This document shows, one piece after another, positions 862-61,800 of a stretch of DNA of 64,000 nucleotides. Source of the DNA: Owenia fusiformis. Lineage: Eukaryota > Annelida > Polychaeta > Sabellida > Oweniidae. The stretch lies in contig CAIIXF020000009.1 in NCBI GenBank assembly GCA_903813345.2, positions 20,547,759 through 20,611,758 of the forward strand. Reading direction: 5' to 3'. Both the position numbers and the translations under genes were made by a program. The notes below the pieces were generated by a model, which was not told the origin of the DNA, ran no database searches, and saw only the letters and a program-made list of their open reading frames with translations. The first letter of the stretch is position 1; the number at the start of each line of letters is the position of its first letter.

Positions 862-3800
862 GTATCTGGCAGAGTCCTATGCCCTGACCCACAAGACAAT
901 GGCTGACCCCAGCCATCCCCCATGCGACATGACTGGGGACGACAACTTTGCTGCTCAGGGGGGCATCACCAATGGGGCAAAATGGTACTCCGTGCAAGGA
1001 GGTAAGAATTACATTTGCCAGCATAAGCTATTAGTCCTTTTCAATTGGATTAACATGGGACTGTTGTGTGAATAATAAATATAACTTTATAACTCTATAA
1101 TTAGGCCCCCACTCTAGCAATAATGAGTTACTATGAAAAGAAATGAAAGCAGCAGGTGGGTCTCTAAAGATAAAGGTAATATAATCATAAAATGAGTATC
1201 TTTTGTATAATTAGTTCATGACTTGAATAATTCCTGTTTTTTCACATCATTTCACTCGCTGTGTTTCACATTGTTGCTTATAGCCTACAGTGTATTATTT
1301 AATCCTTGAGCAAGTATCATCATAGGCTATAACATAGCAAAATAGAGCTGATCTAATTTATGATTGTGTTTTATCCAGGCATGCAGGACTTCAATTACCT
1401 GGCCACAAATGACTTTGAAATTACCATTGAGATGGGATGTGATAAGTTTCCACCTGCTAGTGATCTGGAGACAAAGTACTGGCCCGAAAACAAAGATGCG
1501 CTCGTCAACTATATGTGGCAGGTATACAGATATATGAGGGTTATTGTATGGGACGTTTTGGTTATGGGATATATCCAATGGAAAATATAGATATGTTACA
1601 GAGTTCCCAAAGGAACAATTTAATTTAATAATTTACATGGGCTGATATGGGAGTCCAGGGGTATGATGTATACGTTTTTGTTGCAAAAATGATAGGCGTA
1701 ATTTTGGGAAAATCTTGCCAATTTGAAATATGTTGTTTTCAAAATTGGTTCTTACAACCATAAAATAAAAGATAAAGCCATAGAAACAATGCCAATTTTA
1801 AATGGTATGCCTCTATAGGCCCGTCTTTCTTTGTGTTCACTTGTTGTTCTACATTAGCCATACTGTGATTTTACCAGGTCCATATTGGAATTCGTGGCTT
1901 TGTTCGACAAGCTGGTAAAGATGGTAAAGGACTTGCAAATGCTTCCATACATGTAACGAATCTCACAGGCACACCAAAGGAAATCAACCATGACATTACT
2001 ACAGGTCGGTTGCTACATATATATTTTTTTAAATGGGGGATATATTACTGTAAACGTTCTATATTACTATTGTACTCTTAGTCTGACATCATGATTTCTT
2101 TGGTAAAAATTATGGATTTAGGACTTTTGTAACTGATAACCTCAGTCTACTTAACCAGATTAAAATTAAACTGTAAGTCCAATAGTAAAAATATAATCAG
2201 TGGTAAAACTGTTTTTATTTTGATTTATTTTACGCCCATAAAAGTGTCTTGAGCTTGAAAAGTTAAAATGGAGGATCTCCCAATAGCACAACAGCCCACC
2301 ACATCCATAAATGTTGCTGTTTCTATAAAAATAGAAATATTTGGTGTTTCAGCTCACGATGGGGATTACTGGCGCTTGTTGATAGATGGCGTGTATGATG
2401 TGAAAGCTTCAGCAGATGGTTACGAACCTGTCACAAAGCGTGTTACAGTCAAGAACCAGGAACACTCACTTGCCCAAGTAAGTCAGCTAAGGAAATAATA
2501 AGGTTTACTTTTAAATGAAAATCAAGTATATGGAAATCAACGTTTGAAAATTTTGTTATATTGGGAAAGGGGGTTAAACCTGACATAATTTTTCCATTTA
2601 CCAGGGATCAGCTAAATGACTCACAATAAAAGGTGTCCACATTATATGGTTCTACTAGTGCTGGATGAAAGATGCTCGCATTAAGAGATTTTACTGTATT
2701 GTTATGCTATGTAATTACCTCTTCAATTCTTTTGGGTTTTTGGAGAGCTTTATCGGCAGTTAGAAGGTTGTATTACTTTATCCTTTCAGCTAATAAAGCT
2801 CTTTAAATAAACCCAAAGGAATAGTTTGATATGACTTCTTGTGCATTACGCTAGATACCATATAAATGATTGCATCGTATTAAATTTCCAAAACTTACAA
2901 TGTATTAAGTAAATGGGATATTGTTTCTGAAAGGGAAAGAATTACTCAAAATTGCAATTTCATGCATCTTCTATTTGTTAAAAGTTGTTAAAAAATATGG
3001 GTTTCTTATTTAATCAACATTAATGTAACATTAAGGAATATCCATTTACTTTTAGTTTATTTTTCAATTACCTTTCCACTCGTTTGATTTGCTCCTTCAA
3101 AGAACTCCCGGGAGCTTTATCTACACTCTTAGGCACAATCCTTTGATCTCAGTCTTACCCAATCAGAATATGCCAGTCAAAATCTATCTGTCAATCAGAA
3201 TTTTACTATTATGAGTTCAGACTTCCATGAAAGCCCACGGTTGTTGAGATCTTATCAACATCCAAACTTTATATTCAGTTTTCAATTCAATACATTTTAG
3301 TAAACACTTAATAATATAATTTAGTTTGTTGTAATTATTGCTCGCCTTTGGGAATCAGGCTCATTTCCTATAACTGGTGTATATATATGTATTACATGTA
3401 ACATGTTTTCTGTTGTTGTTTACTTGTAGAGTGTTGACTTTGAGCTGAAGCCTCTTGCTGCTGACAAGGAAGAGGTTGGTATCAATTTACATGTAAATAT
3501 AATATGTCAAATATGATTTATGATCAGTTTTCTTATTTATGAAAACTAGATATACTCGTACATAATGTAAATAATACATACATAAGTATACTTGAAAATA
3601 ATTGATATTATATTCATCTTTTACATTTTGCTTCTGATTGAAATTATTTTGACATCATATTTATGGGAATCACCCAAAGCTTTTTAACCAATCAAAATGA
3701 AGTATTTCAATCGACAGTCCTCTTGATTCACAAGGTTTTGGTTAAAACAAATATTGAAACATTTTTGAATGGTTCCGGTGGAAATCTTAATGCATGACAC

Positions 3801-6044
3801 ACCACAGAAACAGGACAGAAAAATAAGCATATGCAATATGTATCCAAGAGGTGTGTTATTATAACCACCTTGGAAGTCAAAGATGACTGACATTTTTGAT
3901 TTGACATGTTTGATTAAATGAAGCCCACCTTAACTCTAGCTCTTTATTATTTACAGGTAAAACAATCTCTCTCTGACCTCAGTGAGAATGACGTTGATCA
4001 AGAGGTCAGTACATGTTTATATAAAACTCTTAATTTTTGAAATTTGACTTGTGATCTGTTTTGCGTAATAATAAAAATATTGTTTTATATGAATGAATCA
4101 AATCTATTTCAATTATTGCTCCTATCATGAACAGGTATAGCAAACTTAATGTAAGTGGTTTATGCTTTAATCCGAGGAAAGCTATTATTAAGAAAATATA
4201 ATAATAGATGGTGAAGTAATGAGAGGGTATGGATATAGGTTTTATCCTGAGAAAAAAATACATCTTTCAAGAGACCATTTAGAAGGATAAAGCCTACATC
4301 CGAATTTGACCATCATACAGTAACTAATTTATCCCATATTTGTAATTGGCCAAATTGCCATTATTGTCATGCACTCATGCTATCCTAGAAAGCAATACAT
4401 TTATCTCCAATAGCAGTATATAAAATATGTGTCTGATACAACATTTATATGTGTCATTTCCATTGTGGGATAGATTAGATACTGTACTGAAAAATGTTAC
4501 TTTTATCCTTCAATATGCAGTCCTAACTATGGTACAATATGGGTCTATTAGGCATTAAGGTCATATCAGAGATTAGACTGAAGCTTGGGTTCCCTGAGTG
4601 AATCCAGAAATAGTAGGATCTAGTGCATTTATATCCACTCCCCTGTAGATCCTCTCTGTGGGGTTGGTAAACACATGCTGTATTTAGAGGTTTCATCTGC
4701 AGTTGAAGTGAATAGTCAAATCTTCAGTCTTTTAGTTATATTTGAATGAAGATATTTGTGACATTCAACATAAAATGTGCATAAACAGTTATAAATTTCC
4801 ACATTTTCCAATAAGTTTTGGCTGTTTACATGGCTATAAACATATAATAAATAGAGGATGTTCTTTTTATTCCATAGTTAAAGTCATCATCAGAATCGTC
4901 GGAAATTAAGTTATTTAATTCGGATTTTCCAAACGATCCGGCGATGTTGACGCTTAGCCTCGTTTTGAGTCTGAAGTAGCAAAAATCCATAAACCATTGC
5001 ATACGGCGCCATATGTCATGGCTAAAAAACCGTATGCCATGGTTAAGTGAAAATTTGTCAAAAATATCATATTCTACCACTGATTACAAAAATACCGTTT
5101 TTATTTTCACATGTTATCCTATGAATATCATGCTAACTATGGAATAAACAAATACAGTATTTGTTATTCAAATAGCATATAGTCAATATTTGATTAGCAG
5201 AAATATGTCTTTCAAAATAGGATTGAGATTGTTTTATATGTTTTTTACTACCTCTTAATATCTGAATATTTTGACAGAATGGAGATGGGCTCATTTCAGA
5301 TATTCTGTATATCAGAATTTACAATTCATTTCAACCTTAGTGTACCCTAGTTTCCATTTTGATTTTCGGTGGCCAGAAGCCCATGGTGCAAATAAGAAAA
5401 TGAGATGATCTTACATTAATGCAGTGTATGATAAATTGATTGGGATAAGTTTCCCCCTAACAAGATAATCTCATTAATATTAGGGAATTATTAGGGATTA
5501 GTGGCATTACTGAATTTAATTTTGTCTAGACTATTTTCTATCCCTTACATAAAACCATATCCTCAATTTTATTTCATGTCAAAATCAGTAGCTACCCTAT
5601 TTGCTGCATAAATTCCAATAAACAGTTTGTAAGGGTAATTAACATTACCTATTTAAAATTATATTTATAGAAAAACATCTGAACTTGTCAATCCAGTCAA
5701 AGACTATTTTGATGTCGATTTCAAATTCTTTGAGAAATTAACTTCTTTGGGGTATCAGAAATTTGGTTTTGTTATAGAAACATTGAACATTACAGATGCT
5801 TAAAGTGATCAATAAGATTTTAACTAATATGAGAGGGGGGCATGAAGCTTTGTTAAATTAGTTTTGAGAGAAAAGTTCATATTTTGACATTACTCCCTTA
5901 AGTAAAATATACTCTGATGTTCACTTGCAGATCCAAGACATGTCAGATGAGGAATTAGAGAGAGCTCTAGAGGAAGTCATGGAGATCAGAGAGGAGCTTA
6001 ACAAATTTGATTGGCTGAGATACCTCCAGGAGGATGAATATTAA
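862..6044 (+). CDS. CPE: Carboxypeptidase E-like metallocarboxypeptidase (M14B), 3' part, 7 exons
   Basis: Exons read from splice sites and phase: 862-1001, 1379-1521, 1878-2004, 2353-2477, 3430-3474, 3957-4004, 5931-6044 (stop TAA), together 246 codons plus stop. The 5' exons lie off the left edge. The first two exons carry the end of the M14 catalytic domain: [13 protein letters not shown] with the substrate-side Tyr, GMQDFNYL, then [13 protein letters not shown], whose Glu after TI is the catalytic base of the family. Exons 3-5 encode the transthyretin-like domain ([28 protein letters not shown]). The last two exons encode an acidic tail that looks helical ([19 protein letters not shown]), placed like the C-terminal sorting/membrane helix of vertebrate CPE. 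The family removes C-terminal Lys/Arg from prohormone intermediates in secretory granules. The SDP..PPC-like stretch of exon 1 ([11 protein letters not shown]) favours CPE over CPN, CPD or CPM. Zinc ligands are upstream and cannot be checked. Confidence 0.9.
2735..2824. repeat. Imperfect inverted repeat (hairpin)
   Basis: ATTCTTTTGGGTTT and GAGAGCTTTA on the left face TAAAGCTCTTT and AAACCCAAAGGAAT on the right, giving arms of about 27 bp around a 35-bp centre. It resembles a small MITE or stem-loop in the intron after carboxypeptidase exon 4. Confidence 0.55.
3720..3890. repeat. Interspersed repeat, copy 2 (see 240-360)
   Basis: Diverged match to 240-360: CACACCACAGAAACAGGACAGAAAAAT, then TTATTATAACCACCTTGGAA and AAAGATG in the same order. 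Intronic, between carboxypeptidase exons 5 and 6. Confidence 0.55.
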
Positions 6045-9000
6045 ACATCTCTGATTGGGCATTGGAACTATTTTCTTTAGAACTACTTAATTGGATAATA
6101 GGATTTTCTCAACATCATACTTGGAGTTTAATTTTTGAGTCATTTCATACTCGGATATTTTGATGTTGATCAAGGCATTAATGTATAGTGGTAATGTAAA
6201 TGAACCAGTATTATTTGAAAATGTGTGAATGGACATTTTTTGTAAAATTTTGACAAGGCAACTACCTCATACCTGGCTCCACCCCTGACCTACTTAAGTC
6301 CTATACACACACACTGATATATCTGAGAGACTTCCAGTCTGTTATTGAAACACGAGGGATCTGCTGATGTTCTGTTAATTAGATTTGATTCTAAGGACAA
6401 GTCCAGTAAATGATGATTGATTTGAAGCTATAGGCTTAGCGAACACAATCTATCATTTTCTGAGATTAAGGGCCTTGTTTTCATAGATATACAAGATCTC
6501 AGTTCACATTGATAACATTAGGTAGCAAATGTAGCTGGAAAATATTCAACTGGTTGTCTGACTATATTGTCCCGAAACTTTGATGTTTTATTTAAAGTGT
6601 ATTTTAAATGGCTATAGTTGTTGGCCCATCCTGTACATTGTGACATCACAGAGAAAGTAGCTCCAATGTCCTTCTATGAATGAATGGTCACATTATAATT
6701 GATGCTGACATTTTAATAATATTAGTATTAGTGTATTAGTCCCATACAAAAAATGCAGATCACAGTATAAATATTGTAACAATCAGTTGGTGATAAACTG
6801 TGGTTAACATCTATGCTTAAGCCATAGTTTTCGTGAGTATATTACAGTATACATAATAATATAAATGGTCACTGTATACTATGCTAAAATGTAAAGTTGC
6901 TCCTCTAGCAAGATTTATTTTCCTAAATTATCAAATTTGGTTATACCAGGCAGTTTGTATGTAGGTTATAATTTAATGCAAATGTTTATTGCAATTTATT
7001 GTGTCTTTCATGGTAGACATACTTATAGATTAAGGTGAGCAGAGTGGAATAATTAATCTGGAGTACATTATAAAGAGTTAAAAGCTGAAGTCTATTGTCC
7101 TCTGGGTGTGATGTCATGGTTTCTATGGTTACAACGATGGGCTCAGGATTTGTCGCTAAAAATGTTTTGGTAATGTGCTCCTGGATAATTAAGTTGGGCC
7201 TAATATGTGCGTTGTATTCTTTGTTAGTGCAATATACGAAAAGCCACAAATTAGTCTCACTTTGTCTGCCTTAATATAACCAGCTAGATACTTACACTCT
7301 AGCTTCCTTAAGTGGAAGCTCCTTACAAACGAGAAGGTATACAGGGTTAGTGTATACATGGCATAGGACATTTAATATATTGTGCAATATATATGTAAGA
7401 CTTGTAAATATTCATTTGCATGGAGAAACTGGAGAGTGAGATAGAAGAGATGGAAGGTTGTGGTAGCGCTCAGAGAAATAATACTTTTGGAAATAAATTG
7501 TACACTCCGCTCCATAAGTTTTGCAACCAAAATTTTTCATTGGATAGCATATCCGACCCAACAATGTTTGTACTGGTGTCTCAATTTTGTTCATTGATTA
7601 CAAAAGTTCAGAATTTATTACAAAGATGAACTTTAAAATTGCTATAAATGCTTAACACAAACAGGCTTTAATTTATGATCAAAAGGGGGACTTTTGCCCA
7701 ACTTAAGGAGAGAAGTGTATATGACTAAGTGGTCTGGTCAAAATATTGACCAATCGAATAATGCCAAATACATAGAAATGAAAACATGTTTTTTGCTTCC
7801 TAATCCTAAGATAGTTCCCATGGCCACATTTTCCAATTGGTATTATTTCAATGTGCTCTTATAATGCTTAGTTGTGGGATTGAAATGTTATGAAATATCT
7901 GGATGAGTTCAATATGACCGTGAGATCAATCATTCCATATTTTAAGGTTTATAATGAATGGAATTATAAATCTTAAAAATTAGAAGTTTGAAAGATTGCT
8001 GAACTAAAAGACATACTTAATTAATGCATTTTGTGAAAATGTATTTACATTCATTGTTTAATAAGAAAACTGGTGTATTATATGGCACCAGTTTACATAG
8101 GTTATTCTTGAACATGTACACAGACAAAGAAATATACATACTGTACCTTATTAACACATTGTAACTAAAACAGTATTGGATATGTACTAGGCTATTATTA
8201 AATGATCTCTGGAAATAGGATGCACACATTGCTACTGAATGGTAGCCATAATTCACATATTGGTTGCCAGTAACAACATATTGGTTGCTAGGCTCCACAT
8301 ATTATTGGGTTCATATTTGTTGCTGGTATCAGATTCTTTGGGGGATATTAGTTTAACAAATACAAATATAAGACTGTCTGTGTATATGTTCAACTGACTC
8401 AAAAATTGTTATATTTTATCAAATATTATTGATGTTATATGTAAAATATATTTTATGTACATATTGCAATTTGGCAATATATTTCTGGTATTCTGACTGA
8501 TTTTTGAAGTAACAAAGTACTTAATGGACAAACTACTTGAAAAACTAGCCATATTGATTCCTTTGTACTTAATTTAGACTTTGAAATTACAATTTTATCA
8601 ACAGCTCTACATTGGGTTAAACATTCAACATATACAAATTATTTGGTAATGGTATTTTAAAGAACAATATCACCTTTACAGATGGACACTTAGACTAAGA
8701 AAAAAACAAAGTCTAACTCATTCCAATAGCAATTGTAGTACAATGTACATGTATTTTTTCTTATTGTATCTGTTACATGTAAAAAAATTGAGAACATGTT
8801 TCAACAAACATATTTTTGAAGCTGAAAAGTTTCTAGATCAGCAATATTTCCTTGATTCCTACTTAGCCTCCTCAAAGTTTGAATCAAGAGAATCTAGAAA
8901 CTAAAACCTTTTGAAAATAGCCAGAGATTTTCATGAAACATGTACTTGAATTTGAAAATGTGAAAATTGTTCATAATACATACACAGAATTGTAATATGC

Positions 9001-9770
9001 AAAGATTTGTATATCATCAGAATGCCCTTACAATTTATGTATTTTTATCGGATAACTGCTGATATTTGCAAATTGGCAAGTTTAATAAAGAATATAATGT
9101 TTAATATACAGCTTATATTACAACTGGTAATTTCCACATATTGCTATTAACTGAACATTATACTCCTAGATTTATTGTGAAATATGAACATGGGAATTTA
9201 TATTTTTTATTTATTATGCTCTTATTCATATCTGTGAATTTACATGTATTTACTTTATTTTACTTAACAATATATAGATGTAATTTACAATTTTTGGAGT
9301 TATCAATTTATTAAACAATGGCATAAGGTACTTTACAATATTGCTTGATTATATATCTGATGATATACAAAGCATTGATGTATGTATGCATTTATAAATA
9401 AGGACAAAATGTCTTACAAAAATGTTTATAATTTGTTCCAGTTTCTGGTTTTTGCAGGATATGTTGATTGAAACCAGTTTATATGTAAATATATATAAAA
9501 CATATTTGGCTCGAAAAAAACTGCTCGCCATTGAGAGAGAGTTGTATTACATAAAAAGCAATGGTTAAATAAGTATTTTATTTATGTCAGAAATTGTGTA
9601 TAATAGAAATTTACTCAAGTTGATCTTGAAGCTTTTACAAATTGCAATATTATATTTAAGAAACCAGAAACTGGAATAATAACATTTGAATATTTATTTG
9701 TGAATAAATAAGTGCTTTCGTGGAAATCTGTGTTCTGTTTGGAATTTGAAAGCGTTTCATTGCCCTTCCC
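6045..9770. other. Intergenic AT-rich DNA, no gene seen
   Basis: This follows the carboxypeptidase stop codon and probably begins with its 3' UTR. A TTTAATAAAG at about 9081 is one of several possible poly(A) signals. Short open frames on both strands lack splice context, recognisable motifs or biased codon use. The downstream gene MOSMO faces this region, so the two genes converge. Confidence 0.6.
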
Positions 9771-20700: not shown

Positions 20701-23510
20701 ATTTTTGGGGTAAAACCATTCAGATTTGTATTATCGGTTATTTGAAAACAAGACATGGCTCCAATTAAACTAAGCAGACACAGTTAATTTAATTCCCCAC
20801 TTCATTTGGTGCATTAATCACTGATCATGATGCCACTTTTAGGCTGACTAAATGCACTTAACTCTCGTGGCAAGTTTTAACCGATTGTTGTGTTCTACAT
20901 GTTATAGATGGTTTGATGAGGATCTGGCGGGAAGAAGGTATCAGGTCCCTTTGGAGTGGCACTTTACCTTCCCTAGTATTAGTATCAAACCCTTCTGTGC
21001 AGTTCATGGTGTATGAGTCACTCAAGAGATATTTACAACGAATGTCTGGAGTAGAGGTATCTATCTATACTACTGTATATCGTATGGTGTAAACCTTGGT
21101 GTTAAAAAATGGATGTGATATTTTTATTATTATTTTTTTATTTCTTGTTTAACTATTATTTTTTAATTTCTTATGTCAAAATTGTAAAAAAGGTTTCAGT
21201 GATAAGTAAACTTCATTAGACTTAGTTGTCAGACATTTCAATGGAGCTTTATTTTCTCTTTGTTGATTCATGGTACATGGTTAGTTGTTACCTGACTGGG
21301 TATATTGTTGTTCTCTCTGTAAACAAATCCTTCTTGCTTTGTTCGTTGTATGAAGAATAACCCTGAATTACTCAGATGCGAGTAGGTAGTTACCATTTTC
21401 GCCACCAGGTGGCTGATTTGGGGGAAATAACATGGCAGGGTATTACAAAATTCCCTTAAACTTGAATATGGATCAGTTTTAGTGGTTCACTTTTCATATT
21501 ACCCTTATGTATGTGATAGTTATACAAATTAAAAGAAAAGATATTTCACTTTTTGTAGTTTTACAATATGAGGTTTATGGGAAATCTCCCCGACCTAGAA
21601 GTCACATTTTCAAAGAAAATTAAATTTTCAAAGTTGATAAACTCTTTTTAAAACCACATTTTTAGACGTAATTTTATATGTAGATTCCAAATATGACACC
21701 AGTTTGACTGAATTGTGAATTTTTAATGATGTAAATCAAGATTATTTCTACTGGCATCTAGGATATTGTCCTTTTATTACAACTTGAGCACCCTTTATAT
21801 CAGTTTTATGTTATGGAAGAATTTAGATGTATAATATTTTAAAATGCATTTCCAGGAGTTGAGTGGGCTGACTTACTTCCTATTAGGTGCCATAGCAAAG
21901 ATGTGTGCAACATTCCTCACATATCCCATGCAAGTCATACAGTCAAGACTAAGGGTAAGTATGTGCAAAGCAAAGATGTGTGCAACATTCCTCACATATC
22001 CCATGCAAGTCATACAGTCAAGACTAAGGGTAAGTATGTGCAAAGCAAAGATGTGTGCAACATTCCTCACATATCCCATGCAAGTCATACAGTCAAGACT
22101 AAGGGTAAGTATGTACAAAGCAAAGATGTGTGCAACATTCCTCACATATCCCATGCAAGTCATACAGTCACGACTAAGGGTAAGTAGGTACAAAGCAAAG
22201 ATGTGTGCAACATTCCTCACATATCCCATGCAAGTCATACAGTCACGACTAAGGGTAAGTATGTACAAAGCAAAGATGTGTGCAACATTCCTCACATATC
22301 CCATGCAAGTCATACAGTCAAGACTAAGGGTAAGTAGGTACAAAGCAAAGATGTGTGCAACATTCCTCACATATCCCATGCAAGTCATACAGTCAAGACT
22401 AAGGGTAAGTATGTACAAAGCAAAGATGTGTGCAACATTCCTCACATATCCCATGCAAGTCATACAGTCACGACTAAGGGTAAGTATGTACAAAGCAAAG
22501 ATGTGTGCAACATTCCTCACATATCCCATGCAAGTCATACAGTCAAGACTAAGGGTAAGTATCTATAATAAGTCATGCACTCAAGATTCTGGGTTAGTTT
22601 TACAATCAATACTTCAACATTTGTAAGTCACTCATGTTAGGTGTTCCCAAGTTGACAGGCCTGAATACTGGACACAACGTAAGTCATAAAGTACATGAAT
22701 ATATGAAGTAACAATACAACATCCTTACATCTGATTCATTTTCCTTATCAAGTTAGAATTTTTCTTTTTATTTACTCAATGTTTTGTTGAAAGGTCTGTA
22801 CCTATCATTCAGTCATATGCTAACTACATTGTTGTACCTTTCTGGTTCCAGGCTGGTTACCATAAGAAAGAGTTGGCTGATTTGAACTTCATACAACAAT
22901 TGAGGAACATGATAAGGTGAGTTGCATATCATGACCATAGCTAAAGGATGCTCTGCAAGCTTGTGTGTGCCCATCCCCATAATTACAAAACCTTGTCTTG
23001 TAAAATATGTTTTGTAAAAAGGTGGATAACTTTTGATCATTTTGTTCATAACTTTTTTGCATTGGATTGATCAGAATTGGCATTTTTATAAAATTTCAAG
23101 GTCAAATGAAAAATTATTGTCCCTCTTTCTGATGAAACTGTGCTGAGGGTCTATATAACCTGCATATGTCATCTGATTCGCACTTTTGTGCTTACAATAC
23201 ATAAATATAGCTTTATCTCATTTTGTGAATTTCAGTCTTTCAACAATGATCCGAAAAAATGTGTGGTCATCTAAACATCTTCAAAATAGAAACTTTGTAT
23301 TCCTTGTACAATAATGAAGAGAAAATTTGTATTGTTCAAGATATTATTTTGTTTGTTTGTTCCAGGAATAATGGTGTACTCATGCTTTATAAAGGACTAG
23401 AAGCTAAGCTATACCAGACTGTTCTCACCGCTGCCCTCATGTTCCTTACCTACGAAAAAATTTCACATTTCATTTTCCGGCTCATGGGCATTGAGTTGAA
23501 AGCAACTTAA
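14734..23510 (+). CDS. SLC25A17: Peroxisomal solute carrier SLC25A17 (PMP34), complete, 9 exons
   Basis: Exons 14734-14814, 18132-18192, 18791-18857, 19856-20010, 20540-20665, 20908-21056, 21856-21954, 22852-22916 and 23366-23510 encode 315 residues when the first exon-7 donor is used; human PMP34 is 307. Phases match at every junction. Mitochondrial-carrier signatures appear in each third: [27 protein letters not shown] and [15 protein letters not shown]34-specific stretches are the [17 protein letters not shown] region, WRxEGxxSLWSGTxPS and [20 protein letters not shown]. The family carries CoA, FAD, NAD and related nucleotides across the peroxisomal membrane. Intron 1 (3.3 kb) holds a TRIM and a YY1-motif repeat. 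Exon 7 is followed by eight further copies of its end and donor (separate entry). AATAAA at 24132-24137 is a possible poly(A) signal. Confidence 0.95.
15140..15212 (+). ncRNA. tRNA-like pol III unit within the 5' LTR
   Basis: The 73-nt segment starts GCCTCTTTAGCTCAGTCGG and ends GCGGGGCA. It has a consensus A box (TAGCTCAGTCGG, 15147-15158) and B box (GGTTCGATTCC, 15191-15201) at normal spacing. The loop CTTCGGA would place anticodon TCG (Arg). The anticodon stem, T stem and acceptor stem have mismatches, so it is a tRNA-derived promoter or relic rather than a standard tRNA gene. Confidence 0.75.
15496..15568 (+). ncRNA. tRNA-like pol III unit within the 3' LTR
   Basis: Identical to 15140-15212 at a 356-bp offset, with the A box at 15503-15514 and the B box at 15547-15557. 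It is part of the 3' LTR of the TRIM and carries the same stem mismatches. Confidence 0.75.
16308..17792. mobile_element. TIR-bounded block of about seven 145-bp monomers with YY1-like motifs
   Basis: The block starts ATCCCACCGAACG and ends CGTTCGGTGGGAT, a perfect 13-bp inverted repeat. After a CCGTCCGTC-rich lead, about seven monomers run from about 16750 to 17770. Each has ACTCAAATACC...GGATTTGG, a GATGCCTAGGGACACAGTAGA segment, AAGATGGCGGCTGA and AAAATGGCGGCCATTTTTCG. The last two match the YY1 consensus, the second as an inverted pair. No intact protein is seen. A degraded end of the family (GGGATTTGCTACTCCATAGA) is at about 31231-31276. Confidence 0.8.
18009..18067. repeat. Perfect hairpin, about 22-bp arms
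   Basis: CATTAAATCAGAGACATATAA and TTATATGTCTCTGATTTAATG face each other around a short loop, just upstream of SLC25A17 exon 2. It may be a palindromic MITE remnant. The complementarity is direct; function is unknown. Confidence 0.7.
18509..18766. mobile_element. TIR element with ends TACAGTAAAACCTG, copy 1
   Basis: It begins TACAGTAAAACCTGTG and ends CACAGATTTTACTGT. The interior is a degenerate repetition of TCTAGTGAACACCT. Related elements are at 32200-32948 and 48988-49091. Non-coding; in SLC25A17 intron 2. Confidence 0.65.
20105..20317. mobile_element. MITE with TIR CAGGCCCGTAGCCAG, copy 2
   Basis: ATGCCCGTAGCCAGG on the left and CTGCTACGGGCCTG on the right, with G-runs and C-runs inside. 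The inner TTCAAAATCATAC-like block (reverse complement) is shared with the copies at 13391 and 30125. The left end has lost its CAGG. In SLC25A17 intron 4. Confidence 0.75.
21856..22554 (+). repeat. SLC25A17: Nine-copy 75-bp tandem repeat of exon 7 end plus its 5' splice site
   Basis: Exon 7 begins at 21856. From 21895 a 75-bp unit repeats nine times (starts 21895, 21970, 22045, 22120, 22195, 22270, 22345, 22420, 22495). Each unit has 60 bp of coding sequence ([20 protein letters not shown]) and 15 bp of intron beginning GTAAGT, so there are donors at 21955, 22030, 22105, 22180, 22255, 22330, 22405, 22480 and 22555. Because 75 is a multiple of three and the intron piece lacks stops (read VSMYK, VSMCK or VSRYK), the frame stays open through all copies. 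Copies differ only at a few bases (AAGACT/CGACT, ATGTAC/AGGTAC). Use of the first donor gives the usual protein length; later donors would add 25 residues each. Confidence 0.95.
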
Positions 23511-49800: not shown

Positions 49801-52800
49801 CATTGTAAGCAAAATCCCATGACATTTTTAGAACAAACATGTTTCAGTATCATATGTCTAGGAAAATGTACATGTTTGAAAACAAATAGTTCAGGAGACA
49901 ACATAATCGTCGATTAAATAACTCACTTAAGTTACGTAAACGGAACTTCAAAAAACGGTAAGATCTGCATTTCTTACCGATTCTGTAATCGAGTGGATCA
50001 CCAGTGTTCATGTTGCACATACCACATCTTGCTTTTGTATTGCATTTTGCTTTGTCTATGTTCTGGTGAGTTTTCAAAGCCCAGATGCTGCTTGAAACGC
50101 TAAGTTTAGAAAGCTTCTTCGATATATTATACTTACCTAAATCAGTAGACTTAGACACAAATCTTCTTTTCAATACTTATTGAAGCTTAAAAAGGTTCAT
50201 ATAGAAATTAAATTAATTAAAGTTGAAATAGTTATTTTTGGCTCACACAGTATATTGGACCAACAGGACATCTGTCCATTTATCCAACCATCCATCTATC
50301 AACATTTATTAAAAGGATCCATCAGGTAGATTAATTTCAAATTATGATAAGTTCGTTCCAAAGTCTATTGATGGTTTAGTAACAATCTATAAATGAGACA
50401 CATTTAGGTTATTTGGATCAGAATTATACGACAAACACCACCCTTTTAATGCTCATATCAGTATTGGGGCTTCAGCACATTTTTGAATAGAAAGCACGAT
50501 GTCTAAAATGGAGTTCTGTGCTCAGGTTCACACATGTAATACTTACTGAACAAATCACACAATTATTCATTATTTTATTCAAAGTTTCAGTACTTTTTTC
50601 ACAGCTTGAGCTTACAGTAGGCCTCTAAATGATTTTTTTGTCGAATGCAAAATTCTACCTGGCTTATTTTGAGGTAGTTATTTGCTTCCACTAGGTAGGC
50701 CTTGTTATATGTATTAAACCAACAATCTTGCACATACACAGGTACTTCAAGGTCCAATACCTAGAATATAATGTCGGTTTAAGAGTTAGTCAGAATTTAA
50801 TAGATTTTTTTGGTGATGCGAGAATAGTCTAGAGCCTTATACAGTAGTATTTGTCCATGTTTGGATGGATAAGCATCCACTGAATTCGTATTATGTTTCA
50901 TTTTAGAAGGTCCTTTTGATACTATTGCTTTATCTTAAAGGTGAAAAAAATTATTAGATTTTCTCGTTGATTTTTGTTACCCTATGCATTAGATGAAAAA
51001 AATACAGTAGTTTGATGTTTTTACTGTGACTTGAATTGGGTATCAAAATGTATTTAAATCTCATTTGTAAGTTAAATTACACACATCTTCCTTTAGAATT
51101 TGGTGCATATGTAGGTTCATTATAATCTTAGGGAATTGTCTTGATATTTAGAGATTCCCATGTTATGAAAAAGAAGCTTTCATTTGAACTTTATAAGTTT
51201 AAACTTTCTGTGCCTTCAAGAACAACACTTTGAAATGGTGATGAAGCTTGTGAATACAAGTACATGTACATTTATATTTTTGTAGAATTCCAAAGTGGCT
51301 GAGCTGTCTCTCACGAAGAAAACATGCCCTGTTTGTGGAAGTGACAATTGTGGCAGACACAGGTATATCTTTAATGCAAACATTTTATATCACACTGGGC
51401 GACAATAGCAAAAAAATTATTAACATATGTTGTATAAATGTTTGATTGCAATGAAAATATTAAGTGTCATGTTGTCAATATTCTTGAATTGCTCTAGGCT
51501 ATTTAAAAGTTTGTTTGTTCATTGTTCTTAATTGAGTCCAATTTAGAAATGAACCTTAGATCAGGAAGACTCTAGTGCAGTAAGTGTTCCTTTATTCAAA
51601 CTTTTCCTCTTGATTTTCAGACCAGAATTGAATCTTGTTGCCCTCCAACCCTGGCACAATCTCAAAATACCAGAGAGAGTGGATGAAGCTATTGAAGAAG
51701 TAAGCAAAATAAGATATCTATTTGAAATCTAAAAAAAATTGAACTGAAAAAACTTAAAAAGAATCTTTAATTGAAAACAAGTCGATTCATGCTTGTCACA
51801 CTTGCGACTTTAGATATTGCAAGTGCAGATATTATAATTATACCGAATGATGCTCATAAAATAATTGTTGATTGACACATTACTCCATGTAACGGAACCA
51901 AGACTTTCGAATCCCTGAATGCACAATGCTTTTCAAAATCCATATTTGAACACTTGAAATTTTGAGCATGATATTTACTTATTGAACACCCTGTATATTT
52001 AGTTCCTGAACCTGGTGCTGAAGAACTTTGTGTACACCTGGTACCAAGACCTCAGTGAGGATGAAGCATTTGTGGATGACATGAGGGCCAGTCTTAGGTT
52101 CATTGTTGCAGTCTTCCTGAGGAGGGCACAAAAAGTGAGTTTTTCCAATACTCAATTCATCATTTGATAAGTGGGAGTGTTTTCAGAGCAGGTCTGCTCA
52201 AAACTCTGCCTTGATTTGAATTTTGTTGCTAAATCTTTTAACGTTCCAATTATTTATTACATGTAGTATTAGACCAGGGCATTTTTATCATTGATGTTCT
52301 GATTATGTCTTGTAAGTAATATGTTGTTTTTCAGATTGACATTCCAACACTTATAACAGACAAGCTGATGAGACATGCTATAAGGCATCTAGATTGTCAC
52401 CTCCAAGCCAGAAAAAAGGTAGATTTACCGAGAATGTGATTTGCTTTTTCATATTTTTGATTTGCAGTGTAAGCAATGCCACATTTAATTAAAGTACAGT
52501 AAAAATATTGAATTATAATATCTATTATATTATGTGAATCAAAATGATAAACATAGCTCACACATCTAATGATGGATAACAAAAACAGAACCTATCATCA
52601 TATGCATTGGTATTGCAAAAACAGAGCCTATCATCACATACATTGATATTGCAAAAACAGAGCCTATCATCACATACATTGATATTGCAAAAACAGAGCC
52701 TATCATCACATACATTGATATTACATACAATCCAACCTATTCCATGACATATGCTAATTCCCCTAATTTGGAAAAATGGGCAAGTCCAAAAACAACAGGA

Positions 52801-55800
52801 TAACCTGAATCCCTCTAGGTCAACTGACCTAACACCCCTTTATATGCTATATCTTCATAATTGTACTTGCCTATGTATGGAAAAGTGGAAAAATTTTAGA
52901 GTCCAGTTTTTTACTCTATCTGCTAGAAGTTTCTTAGATAATTGGTAAATTGATGGCAGATATATGCAGGACTAGGGGTTACCAGCTTGTTACGGGAACC
53001 TAGTCAACGTGATAGTCTACAGAGGTCGGAAAATCTACAATCTGAACTGGCACAGATGACAGCAAGGTGCTTATTAGAAGCATGCACAACTTGAGTAGCA
53101 GTTTACTGAGGGAGTTGGTGCCCACCATTCCATGGTAGATCTTCAAGACTATACCTCAGCAGGGCCTCCTCAGCAGCAGAAGAAGGTACTTGGACAGAGT
53201 CACAAGTCATTCTTCAGTGCAGTGAGCTCATTTGTGGTTGTATTTTAGTGTACTTCTAACACTAGAAACAGGTCAGTTTTTAGGTAATCCTTCCATGGAT
53301 TTTATTTTCAAACTACACGCTTAGCTAACAGTCAACTTTAGGTTAGCCTAGCTTGTCTTTGGGACAATAAGTTCAGACCCATTTGAACTTTATTTGACCC
53401 CTACTGGCTTGTATTATCTTTTTTGTAAAGGTTTTTCACTCATACCTTGAACCTTTCTGTAAGGGACCTTTACTCTTTAACCCTATACTAGTATACTTTT
53501 ACTAGCCCTAGGGTTCTAATCCTTTGAGTTCATGACTATACTATTGTGTAGTATATTATGTAATGATGGCCTTCTAGGTTCATAAGGTTATTCCCCTTAT
53601 TCATGCACCTACAGTAGCTTTGTTGGAGTTCATTGTTTTGAATGACTATTTCCTTAGTTTTTCACTCAGTAATCATTACATTCAACCTGTGCTTATCCAC
53701 TGAACAGTGTTTTCTTTTTTTGAAATGTTGTGTTCAGGGATTATGAATAGGTGGAGTTTTTCTAAGAACTCTACTTATTGATGAGTGTAAATTATTAGTA
53801 TTGAAAGATCTTTTTGCTGATCTTTCTTGTTTCTTTGTCTTACTTTTTTTTTACTCGGGAATTAGTCTCAACTTTGTTTCTAGTTTAGTAACAAGCTTGA
53901 CTAGATAACATATTTTTCAGTTGGATTGAATCTACATTGTTCATAGATGTAGTTAATTCTCATCTTTTTTCACAATCACTTTACACCCTTTGTAGGGTTC
54001 TTGGTTCCAGCACTTTATGGAATTGTGTGGTTTAGCAGTCAATTAATTTAAAATATTAGTTTTTTGACATTTAAGAGATGTGAACGTTTCATTCACTTGC
54101 TACTCTTCACATCACTTGTTTTCTATGTTCTGTTTGTTTTCTGCTTACAGATACACTCAGCTTTTACTTTTGTATTTCTTATTCATCAACTATTTTTAGG
54201 TCTAATTTTACATTCGTGTAAAATTAGTTAGTTTACAGAAGCCTTACTTTAATATACATTGAATGGCTCATTAATGCCTTCTGGTCACAACGTATTCATT
54301 CTTTATTTATACCAGGGCATAGGATGTTTGTTCTACAATCATTTTGGATATCTTGGTTTTCAAATCTTGTTTCATTATTTTTAATTTTACAAGGATAATT
54401 TTTACTAAGTTTTTGTTTGTTTGTTTGTTTGTACTTTTGTGTCTCTTTATGGAGATCTACATTATTGTTTATCTACATATCTCAGGTCCACTCTGTGTCT
54501 TAGAATCTTTTGGTTAGTTTTACCCTAACCACAGTTTTTTAAGGAGTGGCTCACCTTAAAATATGCTTCATACTCTTGAACAGCTACTTATCAATCACTC
54601 CTTTTCTGGTATTGATTGGTTTCATGCATATTTTCTAAGTAACTATATGTTTCTTTATAAGCTGTGTACCTTCACACATGTTTGAATCTTGTCTTAAATT
54701 GATAAGATCATGAGTTTATTGATTGAAATATATTTTTATATTTTTCAATCAACAGTAGAAGAGAGGATTCTACACATCGGTTCAGGTTCTTTATACCATG
54801 AATCTTGTGTTTAAACATGCTTCTAAGTGATGGGCTCTCATTTTTATTATCTGGAGCCTGTTTTCTTTCATTTTCGTTCTTATTCATAACCATAGTACTT
54901 ATTCATTTGTGGATTGGTTATTATTTTCAAACAAGGTGGTTTTCATCTAATATTGAAAACACATCCCTTTGATTGTGAAAGTTGCCTTTGTGGTTTTCGG
55001 GCCTGGATTGCTTTACGGTTTCACTCCAGTTCCAGACTTCATTTGGTCTTATATTTTTTACTAGTTCATGTTCATAGTACTAATACTACTATTTAACTAG
55101 TAAAAGGCTGGTAGTTTTAACCACTTGGATAAACTGACCATGTTTTTTTTGGATATAGTTTTTTCCCCTGAGAAACTGCGAGTCACTTTTATTGTGGAAT
55201 TCATCTTTGTGGTCTTTGGGCCTGGATTGCCTTCAGGTATCACTCCAGTTCCAGACTCCTTTTGGTCTTATTTTATTACTAGTTCATGTTCATAGTACGT
55301 ATACTTCTACTTAACTAGAACAGGCTGGTAGATTTAACCAATTGGATAAACTAATCATGTTTTATGATATTGTTTTTTCCATTGAGAAACTACAAGTCAC
55401 CTTATTTATGGAATTAATCTTGGGCTTTTTGGGCCTGGATTGCTTTAAGGTTTCACTTCAGTCCAGACTTCATTTGGTTTTTATATTATTACTAGTTCAT
55501 GTTCATAGTACTAATACTACTATTTAACTAGTAAAAGGCTGGAAGTTTTAACCAAATGGATAAACTTATCATGTTTTTTATGATATAGTTTTTTCCCTTG
55601 AGCAACTGCAAGTTTGGCTTAAGACTACTGAAAAGTAATGTTCTTGGACCAAGCGTTGTATGGATCCAACATTTGACTGGTAGACACATGCAGTAGTACT
55701 TCGATGACCATGCGGGCCTGATGTTTATGCTGTTGATACTAGAGTTTCAACTCCAAGCCAAGTTTGATCTACAAAGGTTATGCTCCAAGTCAAGAACTTT

Positions 55801-58800
55801 GTGGATCCAGCACTACCTTACTACATACTGCAGTAGTGTTCCTAAACACCTACATCCATGATGTATGCTCTTGGTAGCTTTAGACAGACCCGGGAGAAAA
55901 GCGGACTATTCTTGTCAACCAGTGATGCCAACTACAAACCTGGATGAATTTAAAGGTTACGTTTTTGGACACAGATTTTGGTGGATCTAGCACTACTATA
56001 CTCTCATACTATACTAGTAGTGCTTCTTTTTGTAGCAGTATCTACGTTCAATGCTGTTATACATGTACTCTTATAGACAGATAGATGTACTATCCATTGA
56101 AGATACCACTAGTCTGCCTTTTGCAAGCCTGTGAAGAACATTTAAAAGTTTTTGGTTCCAGGCCAAGAATTTTGTTGATCCAGTGAGGTTCTGAATTCTT
56201 CTGCAGTATTCTGTCAATATGCAGCACTAGCTATGATGTTTGCTGTTTACAACCTGGACAGATGGATGTTCTAACCACAATCCAATAGTCGAATACAACA
56301 ATTGAAGGTTGCATTCCAAGCCAAGCTCTTCGTGGGAACAACACTTAGCAGTGCTTTGATGGCAGTAGAATACTTTCTGTTATGCTATGGCCACTATAGA
56401 CAATCATATCAGTGATATCCTCACCTTCTTAAAGAACCAACAAATGCAAGCTTGTTTCCAACCACCTTTAGATTCATCTCCTTACTAATCCTTCATAGAT
56501 AAGTATGGACCTGTATGCTGTTCTACTTTGTGCTTGATGTGCCACTGTGTCTACTAGGGTAGCTGTGTTACAGTTTTATACAGATGGATAGACTGTCTAG
56601 ATGCACTAGTTTGTCCATTGAACAACTTGTTTTGGCCAGATGGAAGATGTCTCTTCTTGCCCAGGTCAGCAGTAATGGTTGATCTGTTCTATGATGAATA
56701 CTAATTGGTACTACAAAGAAGATGGTTTGACTTATCCTTGTAGTTATCTGGTGACTGTACCAACCTCGACTGGCTGGGTCTACGGAGGTGTCTTGCTCCA
56801 TGTAACTTTGTTATGGATCCAAAAGAAGAAGCACTTAGCAGATGTGTAGTGGTATTGTTCTATGTCGTTAAACCATTCTACAAGTTGGCTGAAACGGCTT
56901 TATGATCATCGCTGGTCCAGACTTGATGTTTATTCAACTAACATCCAACTCTGAGAGCAGATACAAGACAAGCTGTAGTGTGTACCACCTCACTTTGTAT
57001 GCAAGACTGGTTCCTTTAGGACCCTGTGCTGTGACTCATGGTAGTTGATTTAGTTGGCAGTTTCCTAGAATTCCAATGGATGAAAGGATGATGCCTTTGT
57101 CTACACTGACAAGAACTACAACAATGGCTTGGATTAACTCATGTATATCTCATCCAAGCTGCAGGTGGGTCTACAGCTTCAAGAACTATATACAACTTTA
57201 AGTACTCTGCAACTTGTTACCAACTCAGTATTGCACTGTTGTCTGGTGATTGGAACACTGGGTGGACTTGGTTTGTCTTTATCTTGTACACAGCCATTCC
57301 TTGTCTATCCAGTTCTTGTGTAAGTGGAACTGTTTTGCAGAAGGGTTCAACTCAACCAGCTTGTGACCTGGACCTTTGAAGAACTACAAGGTTGCCTCGT
57401 TTGGTTAAACGGCCCATCCTTGGCTAACCAGTTCTATTCATAGGAGTTATTCGCAACCCTTAGATGGGTAAGGATACTCACTGTGAAAGGACATACAGTC
57501 TCCCAGATGTGTAGCTGAACTGTTTTGCAGAAGGGTTCAACTCAACTAGCTTGTGACCTGGACCCTTGAAGAACTGCAAGGTTGCCTCGTTTGGTTAAAC
57601 GGCCCATCCTTGGTTAACCAGTCTCTATTCATAGGAGTTGGTCATTACCCTTAGATGGCTAAGACTGCTCACTATGATAGGACAATAACAGTTATACAGA
57701 TGTGTCACAGCCTCTGCCTTACAATGGATGACGGTGGCTGTTCTACTAGGGATCACTATGGTTTGTGAGATCAGAGTACTTTTTGGTAATATGAATTTAC
57801 TTTTTATTATAAGTACTTGTGTATATATATTTATTATACTTTTGGCTTAATCGGGGTCCCACCTCCTTTACTTTGAATTCAGCATATGTCATGGAATAGG
57901 TTGGATTGTATGTAATTGAGAAATTTTACAAGTAAATTTTCTATTAATTACAATACAAACCTATTCCATGACCATAGGCCCACCCGGCCTCCCCGCAGTA
58001 TTTTTAAGTTTTACTGCGTACAATTATGAAGATATAGCATATAAAGGGGTGTTAGGTCAGTTGACCTAGAGGGATTCAGGTTATCCTGTTGTTTTTGGAC
58101 TTGCCCATTTTTCCAAATTAGGGGTATTAGCATATGTCATGGAATAGGTTTGTATTGTAATTAATAGAAAATTTACTTGTAAAATTTCTCAATTGCAAAA
58201 ACAGAGCCTATCATCACATACATTGATATTGCAAAAACAGAACCTATCATCATATGCATTGATATTGCAAAAACAGAGCCTATCATCATATACATTGATA
58301 TTGCAAAAACAGAGCCTATCATCACATACATTGATATTGCAAAAACAGAGCCTATCATCATATACATTGATATTGCTAAAACAGAGCCTATCATCACATA
58401 CATTGATATTGCAAAAACAGAGCCTATCATCACATACATTGATATTGCAAAAACAGAGCCTATCATCATATACATTGATATTGCAAAAACAGAGCCTATC
58501 ATCACATACATTGATATTGCAAAAACAGAGCCTATCATCATATACATTGATATTGCAAAAACAGAGCCTATAATCACATACATTGATATTGCAAAAACAG
58601 AGCCTATCATCATATACATTGATATTGCAAAAACAGAGCCTATCATCATATACATTGATATTGCAAAAATAGAGCCTATCATCATATACATTGATATTGC
58701 AAAAACAGAGCCTATCATCACATACATTGATATTGCAAAAACAGAGCCTATCATCATATACATTGATATTGCAAAAACAGAGCCTATCATCACATACATT

Positions 58801-61800
58801 GATATTGCAAAAACAGAGCCTATCATCATATACATTGATATTGCAAAAACAGAGCCTATCATCATATACATTGATATTGCAAAAACAGAGCCTATCATCA
58901 TATACATTGATATTGCAAAAACAGAGCCTATCATCACATACATTGATATTGCAAAAACAGAGCCTATCATCATATACATTGATATTGCAAAAACAGAGCC
59001 TATCATCACATACATTGATATTGCTAAAACAGAGCCTATCATCACATACATTGATATTGCAAAAACAGAGCCTATCATCACATACATTGATATTGCAAAA
59101 ACAGAGCCTATCATCATATACATTGATATTGCAAAAACAGAGCCTATCATCATATACATTGATATTGCAAAAACAGAGCCTATCATCACATACATTGATA
59201 TTGCAAAAACAGAGCCTATCATCATATACATTGATATTGCAAAAACAGAGCCTATAATCACATACATTGATATTGCAAAAACAGAGCCTATCATCATATA
59301 CATTGATATTGCAAAAACAGAGCCTATCATCATATACATTGATATTGCAAAAATAGAGCCTATCATCATATACATTGATATTGCAAAAACAGAGCCTATC
59401 ATCACATACATTGATATTGCAAAAACAGAGCCTATCATCATATACATTGATATTGCAAAAACAGAGCCTATCATCATATACATTGATATTGCAAAAACAG
59501 AGCCTATCATCATATACATTGATATACACTCCCCTCCATAAGAGTGGCAGCTGGAAGTCCCCCTTCGGATCATTTATTAAACCCTGTTCATGTTTTGAGA
59601 TTTCAAAATATTCATCATTTTATCATAAGATTCAGAACTATTGTCATTAACCTCTTGAATCCCAGGCATTAGAGTCAGAATTTTTGAAACCTTTTGATAT
59701 TTTACTACAACCTATCCAATTTTAGATGCTCAACTTAGTCAAATTTGACGGCAGAGATCATTTCAACACATTTTATAACAATTTTAGTGTAAATAGGATA
59801 AAAAATTCAAATTAGAGCAAATTTAGTGAAAAATTTTGTGACAGATTTTCTTGTCACTCTGGGTTTCAAGGTCATTTCTGAGGTGACGAGAAATATCATC
59901 ACTCCAGGTAGGCAAGAGGTTAAGAAACAAAATTAAGATTCAAACATTAACATGTTTAACAAATATAAGCGCTTTCTTTTATATGTAGTCTAGATGTCAT
60001 TTTAAGAAATTCTGTTAAACCGCAACATATACCCACTAGGGTGTCTAGCGGCTTGTTTTTATAGTGTAAATTATATGAGAATTATGAAATAAATAAATTG
60101 AATTGATGTTTTGATATCTAATGAATGAAGTGATATCTAATGAAAACTATTGGTTGCCAAACCTATGCAGGGAAGTGTATGTTCGCAGGTTTCATTTGCA
60201 ATCAAACTTATTTCTATTTAATACAGGCCCATTTAGCTGGTTACCAAGGTGACCTCCAGCAGGCAACACTAGACTTCTATGGCCCACATCTTCACTGTGC
60301 AATGAGGAACAGGAAGACTGAGCTAGATTATCTACGCAAGGTTTCTGAGGCTATATTTCCTTACATACTTCCCCCACAGTCTTTACACTGCCAGTAAGTC
60401 TATATAATGATCCTATACATTGTAACCACACTCAGTAAATTGGATTAATAAGAAGTTTGGATACCTGACATTATAGAGATTTGTTTCTATTAATTTTACT
60501 ATGTCACCACCAAAAAGTGGTGACATATTGTGATTTTCTCCATTTTTTGTGATGGCGAATAGTGATCGACGGTTGGCGATCAGCGTTTGGTGTCTGTAAC
60601 AAATGGTGGTGACATTTTGCATGATAATGTATTTGTTTATTTTCCAAATATCTTGATGAACAATTGTTGTTGTTTTTTCAGGAGTCTGTTGACTTTACTG
60701 AGAGAGATATTCTCCAGCTCCCTGCTCCTCCCTGCCATGGATGTTATAGCTGATCCTGTAAGTAACATGCAATCAGTCACAATTTAAGAAGATAAACTAT
60801 TTGAATATTGTAAGTTTTTCTTAGATTTTATTTATATCAGAGGTGGCGTTAACGCAATTTTTTACGTTTTTTACTCACATTTTTGCAACTCTGACGCAAA
60901 TATTCATTGTCTACCGAGTTTTTCTGACGCACGTTTGTTTCACATGCAAAATCCCCGCTTGGTACTTGGTTAAATTGATCCCTATACGTGAAAATACGTG
61001 ATTGATCAAATTTATAATTTTGCTAATTCCGGAAATCTAACATTTCGTTCAGCGCAATCGAGCCTCCTTCCTACCGATCGTTTTCTCATTTCGGTATTTC
61101 ATATAATTTTTAAAGCCCTGTGATTCAGATTCAATGATAAACTTGAAAACATTGATCGATCCCTCGATTTGTTTATCTCGTGAAGCACGTTGCTAGGGGG
61201 CGTATCAAAAATGCAATAAAACGAACATAACATTGAACAATAATTTATTAATTTCATACTCCCTTCTAAGGATTTTAGTGATCGTATATTTATCTAAATT
61301 ACCGCATAAAATCTTCCCTTGAATGTTCACACGCTAGATTTACGAACCTTTAGTTTCCTTCGCAAGTTCGCAAAATTCCTTCGCTAAGTTAGCAAGTTTC
61401 CTTGAGCCGTCCCCTTCATCAGCATGCGCAGATGTAAAGCGCAGTAGGTTTATCAATGGTGCTCACAGTGACCGATCTATCGTAAGTTTTCACCAAGTAT
61501 TTTCAATTAACTCCCTCAAGTTAAGATCTTCGATTCACTAGATCTGAAGCTGATCCTATGAAGATAGATAATGGGCACATGAAAATCCAGTCGATCGCAC
61601 ATTAAGGGGGGTAATGATGATAAATTAGGTATGAAAACAAATCTACTTTCGGTTTCATTTGATCAGCTATAATTACAAGATTCTACCGTATTCAATTTAA
61701 ATGATGCCCAGTATTGTGGTCGGACTTATTGCCGTTTTAGACTTTGGAATGATTGCAAAAATGTTGAATTTCAACATGAAACGCTTTGACCCCAATTTGT

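Follow-up and report, generated by a model that had tools for sequence, protein, structure and literature searches.

A probable non-autonomous DIRS family in Owenia fusiformis and the one-sided triplets at DIRS insertion joints

We analysed a window of 64,000 nucleotides from the annelid Owenia fusiformis (GenBank assembly GCA_903813345.2, contig CAIIXF020000009.1, positions 20,547,759 to 20,611,758 of the forward strand; G000:C9:20547759-20611758 in our numbering). Positions 52720-58194 of this window are occupied by a DIRS-type insertion of 5475 bp net, a single ATT being counted on the left. We regard it as very probably a non-autonomous DIRS retrotransposon, moved in trans. Below it is compared with L019 and L020, the two related loci at which reverse transcriptase (RT) frames were read, and the triplets at its ends are compared with those of three further DIRS families. 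The features of the locus are as follows.

52720-58194, forward strand: whole insertion, predicted to be a non-autonomous DIRS, with its empty site in the 36-bp array
52720-52866, forward strand: left inverted terminal repeat (ITR), its first 3 nt being the junction triplet ATT
52720-52792, forward strand: outer part of the left ITR, also present in the autonomous L019 family (73 nt at 90%, of which the first 36 are identical)
52867-57316, no strand: interior, no coding sequence detected, no match to L019 or L020
54986-55613, no strand: tandem repeat, 213 bp x 2.9 (tandem-repeat scan)
55748-56277, no strand: degenerate repeat, offset 181, about 60% identity (self-match, E 3e-9)
57327-57684, no strand: repeat pair of about 190 bp, two copies (self-comparison)
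57329-57720, forward strand: region homologous to a stretch shortly 3′ of the autonomous recombinase frame (57329-57503, 87% to L019 and L020; 57519-57720, 91% to L020)
57881-57972, forward strand: internal complementary region (ICR), matching the junction of right and left ends in reverse complement (92/92)
57973-58017, forward strand: spacer separating the ICR from the right ITR; similarity to the autonomous group extends to about 57996
58018-58150, forward strand: right ITR
58151-58194, forward strand: divergent ITR tip and right extension, terminal CTCA
58195-58197, forward strand: right triplet ATT, which opens the resumed minisatellite unit
52580-52722, no strand: 36-bp minisatellite, 4.0 copies, left of the insertion, its last 3 nt overlapping the element's ATT
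58192-59525, no strand: 36-bp minisatellite, 37.1 copies, right of the insertion (limits by Tandem Repeats Finder)

The inverted termini pair over 133 nt (52734-52866 with 58018-58150, 99% complementary), and a second inverted match of 36 nt joins the left end to the ICR (52720-52755 with 57881-57916, 100%). The extension is present on the right side only, reaches 58194 and is complementary to the ICR (58136-58197 against 57911-57972, 62 nt, 98%). Removal of 52720-58194 restores an unbroken minisatellite unit with neither duplication nor loss of target sequence, and the empty unit, GATATTGCAAAA, was read directly in the array. The insertion thus has the parts by which DIRS elements are defined structurally: ITRs, a one-sided extension, an ICR with a 3-bp overlap and no target duplication. 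An earlier note, made from the letters of the window alone, had proposed inverted termini, a one-sided extension, an ICR and insertion into the minisatellite without target duplication, and all of these were measured at 52720-58194. The exact empty site that it placed in the 36-bp array and its three sets of tandem repeats, listed above, were likewise recovered. When the degenerate repeat was compared with 20 shuffled sequences, 17 of these gave no self-hit and three gave one.

A six-frame Pfam scan of 52890-57880, with X at stops, returned no family at E<=1, the HMMER filters dropping most matches above E ~0.1. Searching by tblastn with the L019 proteins (the frame in gag position, RT/RNase H and the last 396 aa of the recombinase) gave no match in the element at E<=1. 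By Pfam and tblastn the element therefore lacks the RT/RNase H and tyrosine recombinase of an autonomous DIRS1-like element. For methyltransferase, no Pfam family was found in the six frames of the element or on the corresponding part of L019. The translated profile search suggested in the earlier note thus agrees with its view that no RT or recombinase is recognisable here. None of the 30 stop-to-stop frames of at least 50 aa was intact (at least 90% of its length, no stop) in all 16 other copies that were compared; the best-kept, of 53 aa at 57689-57847, was intact in 15 of them. An Rfam search of 52600-58300 gave no match.

The same interior is found elsewhere in the genome (498 Mb, 525 contigs). 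Each of two probes, 52900-54900 and 55614-57316, detected it at 21 loci including the window; all first-look candidates were scored (26/26 and 23/23), and every one belonged to the family. The pattern in the window is therefore not due to chance. Two loci on C7, at 34.26 and 34.28 Mb, have a common right flank and probably represent one insertion that was later duplicated, so that there are about 20 independent insertions. Sixteen other copies (18 loci) were fetched and aligned to the window copy, to which they are 95.4-99.0% identical over aligned positions; several have further insertions or deletions. Both ends are common to 15 of the 16, L010 being without the right end. When identity is taken in 180-bp bins it is highest at the right end (99.8 and 99.4%); the bin at the left end stands at 99.0% and the others at 92.1-99.1%. 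The ICR was compared with each copy's own joined ends, L010 being left out as its right end is gone. Of the 17 copies 14 agree at 92/92 and L012 at 90/92, and L014 has lost the ICR. General absence of the ICR from other copies, which the earlier note had named as evidence against a DIRS element, was thus not seen.

Capture of host DNA was considered as a source of the interior and rejected. The two probed stretches had no match in the genome outside the family, in a type of search that weak matches can escape; 54901-55613 and the part from 57317 onward were not probed separately. Two other loci are of separate interest. At L050 (G000:C4:19759460-19761560) the family's left end and ICR lie about 1.6 kb apart and neither interior probe matches, and this locus would be a deleted or rebuilt derivative of the family. 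Copy L015 contains a long insert, apparently a nested retroelement, with a distant RT-like stretch at 3890-4543 (22% identity, E 9e-7).

A genome search with the ICR returned the window family, weaker groups and 11 loci grouped by a 97% match to positions 1-116. One of the 11, L019, spans 3498 to 9164 (5.67 kb), with ITRs of 148-149 nt at 97% and an ICR that agrees with its joined ends at all 92 positions. It carries three long overlapping frames, in gag position, for RT/RNase H and for a recombinase; in these frames, and in the inner half of its ITR, it differs from the window element. The Pfam matches were RVT_1 (E 3.5e-24) and RT_RNaseH (1.5e-5), and the recombinase frame ends in a Phage_integrase match of E 0.0023, at 18.1 of the 27.1 bits of the curated cut-off; the frame in gag position had no Pfam match. 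Among its motifs are YLDD and HETR, where YL/IDD is listed for 25 and HSTR for 13 of 28 DIRS1-like elements (PMC3266345). A search with the recombinase found the same 11 loci, 97-100% identical to L019 and without stops in the matched part. The match in L020 covers 1-370 of 396, and its frames are interrupted by an insertion.

The window element resembles L019 in a few places only. The first 36 nt are identical, the outer 73 nt of the ITR are 90% and the extension about 97% alike, and the likeness continues in the ICR and in some 200 bp that follow soon after the recombinase frame (87-91%); no further match was found at E<=1e-3. The ICR and the right end co-vary between families, each ICR agreeing with its own ends (L019 92, L020 91, L021 91 of 92). 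The preference for A/CA-NTT as target is the same in the L019 and window families. Such a pattern is expected of a dependent element that has kept the cis-acting parts alone, and L019-type proteins may mobilise the window element in trans. The earlier proposal of a non-autonomous DIRS agrees with these results: the other copies carry the same termini and the coding-free interior, and the search for copies with these termini that it called for led to a sister family encoding RT/RNase H and a tyrosine-recombinase-like frame.

Two further loci were noted in these searches. L021 (572-8847) is another DIRS relative, of 8.3 kb, with an ICR at 91/92 to its own ends and recombinase remnants only; it has repeats of about 160-320 bp before the ICR, and over the first ~260 nt it resembles the window element at 71%. 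L022 (G000:C9:30018000-30027700) contains three DIRS-type ICR/right-end units in 6.5 kb, which sit in repeated blocks of 1.0-1.7 kb, 89-99% alike and free of frames of 150 aa. It appears to be a local array of truncated DIRS copies.

To compare insertion joints we scored complete insertions of the window terminus group, at 19 of the 21 non-autonomous and all 11 autonomous loci, and of the L056, L057 and L058 families. The latter were found through the recombinase search, and the junction triplet of each was taken from the ICR of one reference copy; since the best 40 of 44, 40 of 48 and 40 of 51 candidates were used for L056, L057 and L058, respectively, more copies may exist. In the terminus group the left triplet was ATT in 30 of 30, and the right triplet was TTT in 15, ATT in 11, and GTT, TTA, TCT and TTC in one each. 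The L057 family (ICR junction GTT, n=15) had GTT on the left in all 15 and ATT (10), GTT (3) or TTT (2) on the right. L056 (junction GTA, n=17) had GTA on the left in all 17, followed on the right by ATT (7), TTT (4), GTT (2), TTC, GAT, ATC and ACT (1 each), and L058 (junction TTT, n=16) had TTT in all 16, with ATT (7), ATC (3), TTT (2), GTT (2), AAC (1) and TTC (1) on the right. The left triplet was thus that of the element's own ICR in 78/78 complete insertions of the four DIRS families. The right triplet was NTT in 66/78 and differed from the ICR triplet in 62/78; all 62 mismatched insertions had the same polarity and none was reversed (sign test, 4e-19, with insertions treated as independent). 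In the target sequence T was found at the second position in 74/78, at the third in 69/78 and at the fourth in 55/78, with C at -2 in 32/78. The base before the joint was variable on the left (A in 38/78), and A stood at the right end of every scored element. The right triplet looks target-derived.

Left out of the 78 were L010 (left GTT, right end lost), L021 (another family, ATT on both sides), the L022 cluster, C7:34.27 (probably duplicated locally, with no left end detected and the right flank of L012), C5:22.05 (a left end alone, with ATT), and C4:19.76 and C6:32.96 (one end missing). Also unscored were C4:11.97, C5:20.79 (left only), C11:10.20 and C10:8.08 (partial) from the L056 search, C7:25.14 from the L057 search and C6:31.90 from the L058 search.

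Empty sites were sought with the joined flanks of 15 copies of the window family, among the best 40 of 880 candidates and with one place read out per copy. Whole-length matches elsewhere were obtained for L006 and L003 (100%), L002 (99%) and L001 (98%). These four empty sites are sister copies of the interrupted repeats and show no target duplication. For L006, L002 and L001 the empty site reads TTT, and after insertion TTT is found on the right and ATT on the left. The joint therefore lies at a single point, target/ATT...CTCA/target, 5′ of NTT. In the window copy target and element both have ATT, and the retained triplet may be either's. The retained ATT of the earlier note holds in that ATT flanks this copy on both sides; it does not hold as a requirement of the target, the triplet differing in 62/78 insertions and being the target's own in L001, L002 and L006.

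If the window element is a non-autonomous DIRS retrotransposon, its coding-free interior of about 4.45 kb lies between sequences that resemble the cis-acting parts of an autonomous DIRS, namely the outer ITR, the right extension, the ICR and some 200 bp preceding it. It would be transcribed from the ITR and reverse transcribed by proteins of the L019-type family; its incomplete ends would be rebuilt on the ICR and then joined, and the L019-type tyrosine recombinase would insert it 5′ of an NTT triplet without target duplication. The RNA intermediate and the supply of proteins in trans are what we infer in this scheme. Several points weigh against it. Neither a transcript, a cDNA nor mobilisation of the element was observed, the Pfam match of the L019 recombinase is below the curated cut-off, and the source of the interior was not identified. 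L019 has a different inner ITR half, which leaves the outer 73 nt, the extension, the ICR and the stretch preceding it as the grounds for mobilisation by L019-type proteins. Finally L010, whose right end is missing, is the sole copy with a left triplet unlike its family's (GTT, not ATT).

An old autonomous DIRS copy with eroded genes, overgrown by repeats, had been offered as an alternative in the earlier note. Its expected length fits, 5.48 kb being near the 5.67 kb of L019, and tandem repeats are present. We rejected this explanation because the interior is common to 21 loci; moreover 14 of 17 copies have an ICR of 92/92, and searches for gag, RT, RNase H and recombinase found no remnant, whereas the decayed L021 shows recombinase remnants in the same test, which makes erosion very unlikely. 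Movement as DNA only, in which a DIRS recombinase would carry an excised circle without reverse transcription as in Cryptons, needs just a recombinase for insertion 5′ of NTT without duplication, and there is no RNA evidence here. The ICR would then be of no obvious use, yet in 14 of 17 copies it fits the copy's own ends at 92/92, and between families it co-varies with them; we judge this explanation improbable. Long inverted termini are also those of a DDE DNA transposon, the other outcome that the earlier note had named as contrary. We give this next to no credence: the empty sites lack target duplications, the ICR is present, and the sister family with the same ends carries RT and a tyrosine recombinase instead. 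Crypton and DDE transposons have a transposase or recombinase of their own and no ICR; six-frame Pfam found no such enzyme in the element, and an ICR is present.

How DIRS elements insert is bound up with the one-sided triplets. The published model, in which a circle recombines with an identical 3-bp target (PMC3266345), does not predict mismatched one-sided triplets; exchange of a single strand would. With a double-stranded circle and staggered cuts, mismatched triplets should give a heteroduplex, of which unbiased resolution would leave about half reversed. As none of the mismatched insertions was reversed, exchange of one strand only would be the simplest reading of the joints. It would also fit single-stranded cDNA, on which Malicki et al. 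2020 reportedly worked. Two strand exchanges on a double-stranded circle could yield one-sided triplets if followed by strand-biased mismatch correction or replication. The standing model has a double-stranded circle. Circular DIRS-1 DNA is reported in a Dictyostelium discoideum agnA mutant, and the model builds a double-stranded molecule (PMC5633606); a double-stranded circle is also given in PMC5941688. These reports weigh against single-strand exchange, as does the statement in PMC5633606 that DIRS-1 inserts without apparent sequence preference, unlike the NTT found here. The bias would need to be complete, with 62/62 in one polarity and none reversed in four families with different triplets. 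We hold the two-exchange explanation, with fully biased repair, to be a serious one, though less likely than not.

The ends of the element in a Xenopus study, TTT on both sides, are uninformative as to polarity (PMC9210276). The table of 28 elements lists ten with unequal ends, eight of them with a 3-nt junction (PMC3266345). By our own reading of that table, which is not its authors', the junction triplet stands at the start in seven of the eight and at the end in AcasDIRS1, which is listed with a left extension only. In two of the seven, AmDIRS2 and NveDIRS6b, the end is printed AAT, which is the junction unreversed, and AmDIRS2 has both extensions (PMC3266345); notation may be involved in these AAT ends. 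On this slender evidence, polarity of the triplet seems to be tied to the side of the extension.

In minimum-energy single-strand folds of the four junctions, the left end pairs with the inner right ITR to form a stem, and the crossover lies where this stem meets the extension. It falls on the first base of the stem in L056, L057 and L058 and one pair further in for the window element. The stem itself follows from the ITRs. The whole folded junction gave z -7.4 to -9.4 in eight folds, largely owing to the inverted ends, and was not counted as evidence. A hairpin of the extension was considered as a general signal and dropped, right extensions alone giving z -0.55 to -3.28 in six elements, which is suggestive only. 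We propose tentatively that DIRS elements may insert as integron cassettes do, through a single strand exchange at a junction of single-stranded cDNA. The joined ends would fold with the left end paired to the inner right ITR and the extension bulging out, and the crossover would fall where extension and stem meet, beside the junction triplet. If so, the attachment site would owe its asymmetry to the extension, which would also determine the end at which the element's triplet is kept, and AcasDIRS1, with its left extension only, would be the mirror image.

Integron cassettes are moved by a tyrosine recombinase. At their attC sites the folded bottom strand recombines asymmetrically (PMC8876359). 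Joints are asymmetric in both systems, and the single-stranded DIRS junction can also be folded into a long hairpin; cassettes are bacterial and have no RNA stage, and the comparison is an analogy that claims no homology. No description of folded or single-stranded DIRS integration was found in the titles and abstract openings of the open-licence literature.

Non-autonomous forms are common in other retrotransposon orders. In LARD and TRIM elements an interior without coding sequence is enclosed by ends that carry the cis-acting sequences of an autonomous relative. Both are non-autonomous long terminal repeat (LTR) elements (PMC8498967), and the Dasheng/RIRE2 pair is cited in PMC9210276. The window element belongs to a different order, in which a tyrosine recombinase, ITRs with an ICR and lack of target duplication are found. 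The 28 DIRS1-like retrotransposons of Piednoel et al. 2011 (PMC3266345) share with it ITRs, a right extension, an ICR with a 3-bp junction and insertion without target duplication, and the mollusc elements LgDIRS1, LgDIRS3, AcaDIRS1 and AcaDIRS2 have ATT at both ends, like the window copy. These elements are described with pol and recombinase motifs, whereas the window element has no detectable coding; the model given for them has an identical 3-bp target, whereas the right triplet here is unlike the junction in 62/78. A search of paper listings and text passages in the open-licence literature, with repeat databases and subscription papers outside it, found no description of a non-autonomous DIRS family.

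The family would give DIRS, a poorly understood order of retrotransposons, a clear autonomous/non-autonomous pair, comparison of which points to the outer ITR, the extension and the ICR with some 200 bp preceding it as the minimal cis sequences. The one-sided joint would be the more important result, if it holds in other species. It would be a sequence footprint of the integration step, making a double-stranded circle with two exchanges and a single-stranded cDNA with one distinguishable by test, and the rule of an identical target triplet would need correction, at least for four families of the Owenia fusiformis genome.

Two minor observations were made elsewhere in the window. Around the minisatellite, at 58173-59619, open frames of 452-476 aa occur on both strands; the period is divisible by three, and the frames are probably an artefact of the 36-bp period, not a gene. 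At 21894-22562 there is a 75-bp repeat of 8.9 copies with 98% matches, which may be part of a mitochondrial carrier gene.

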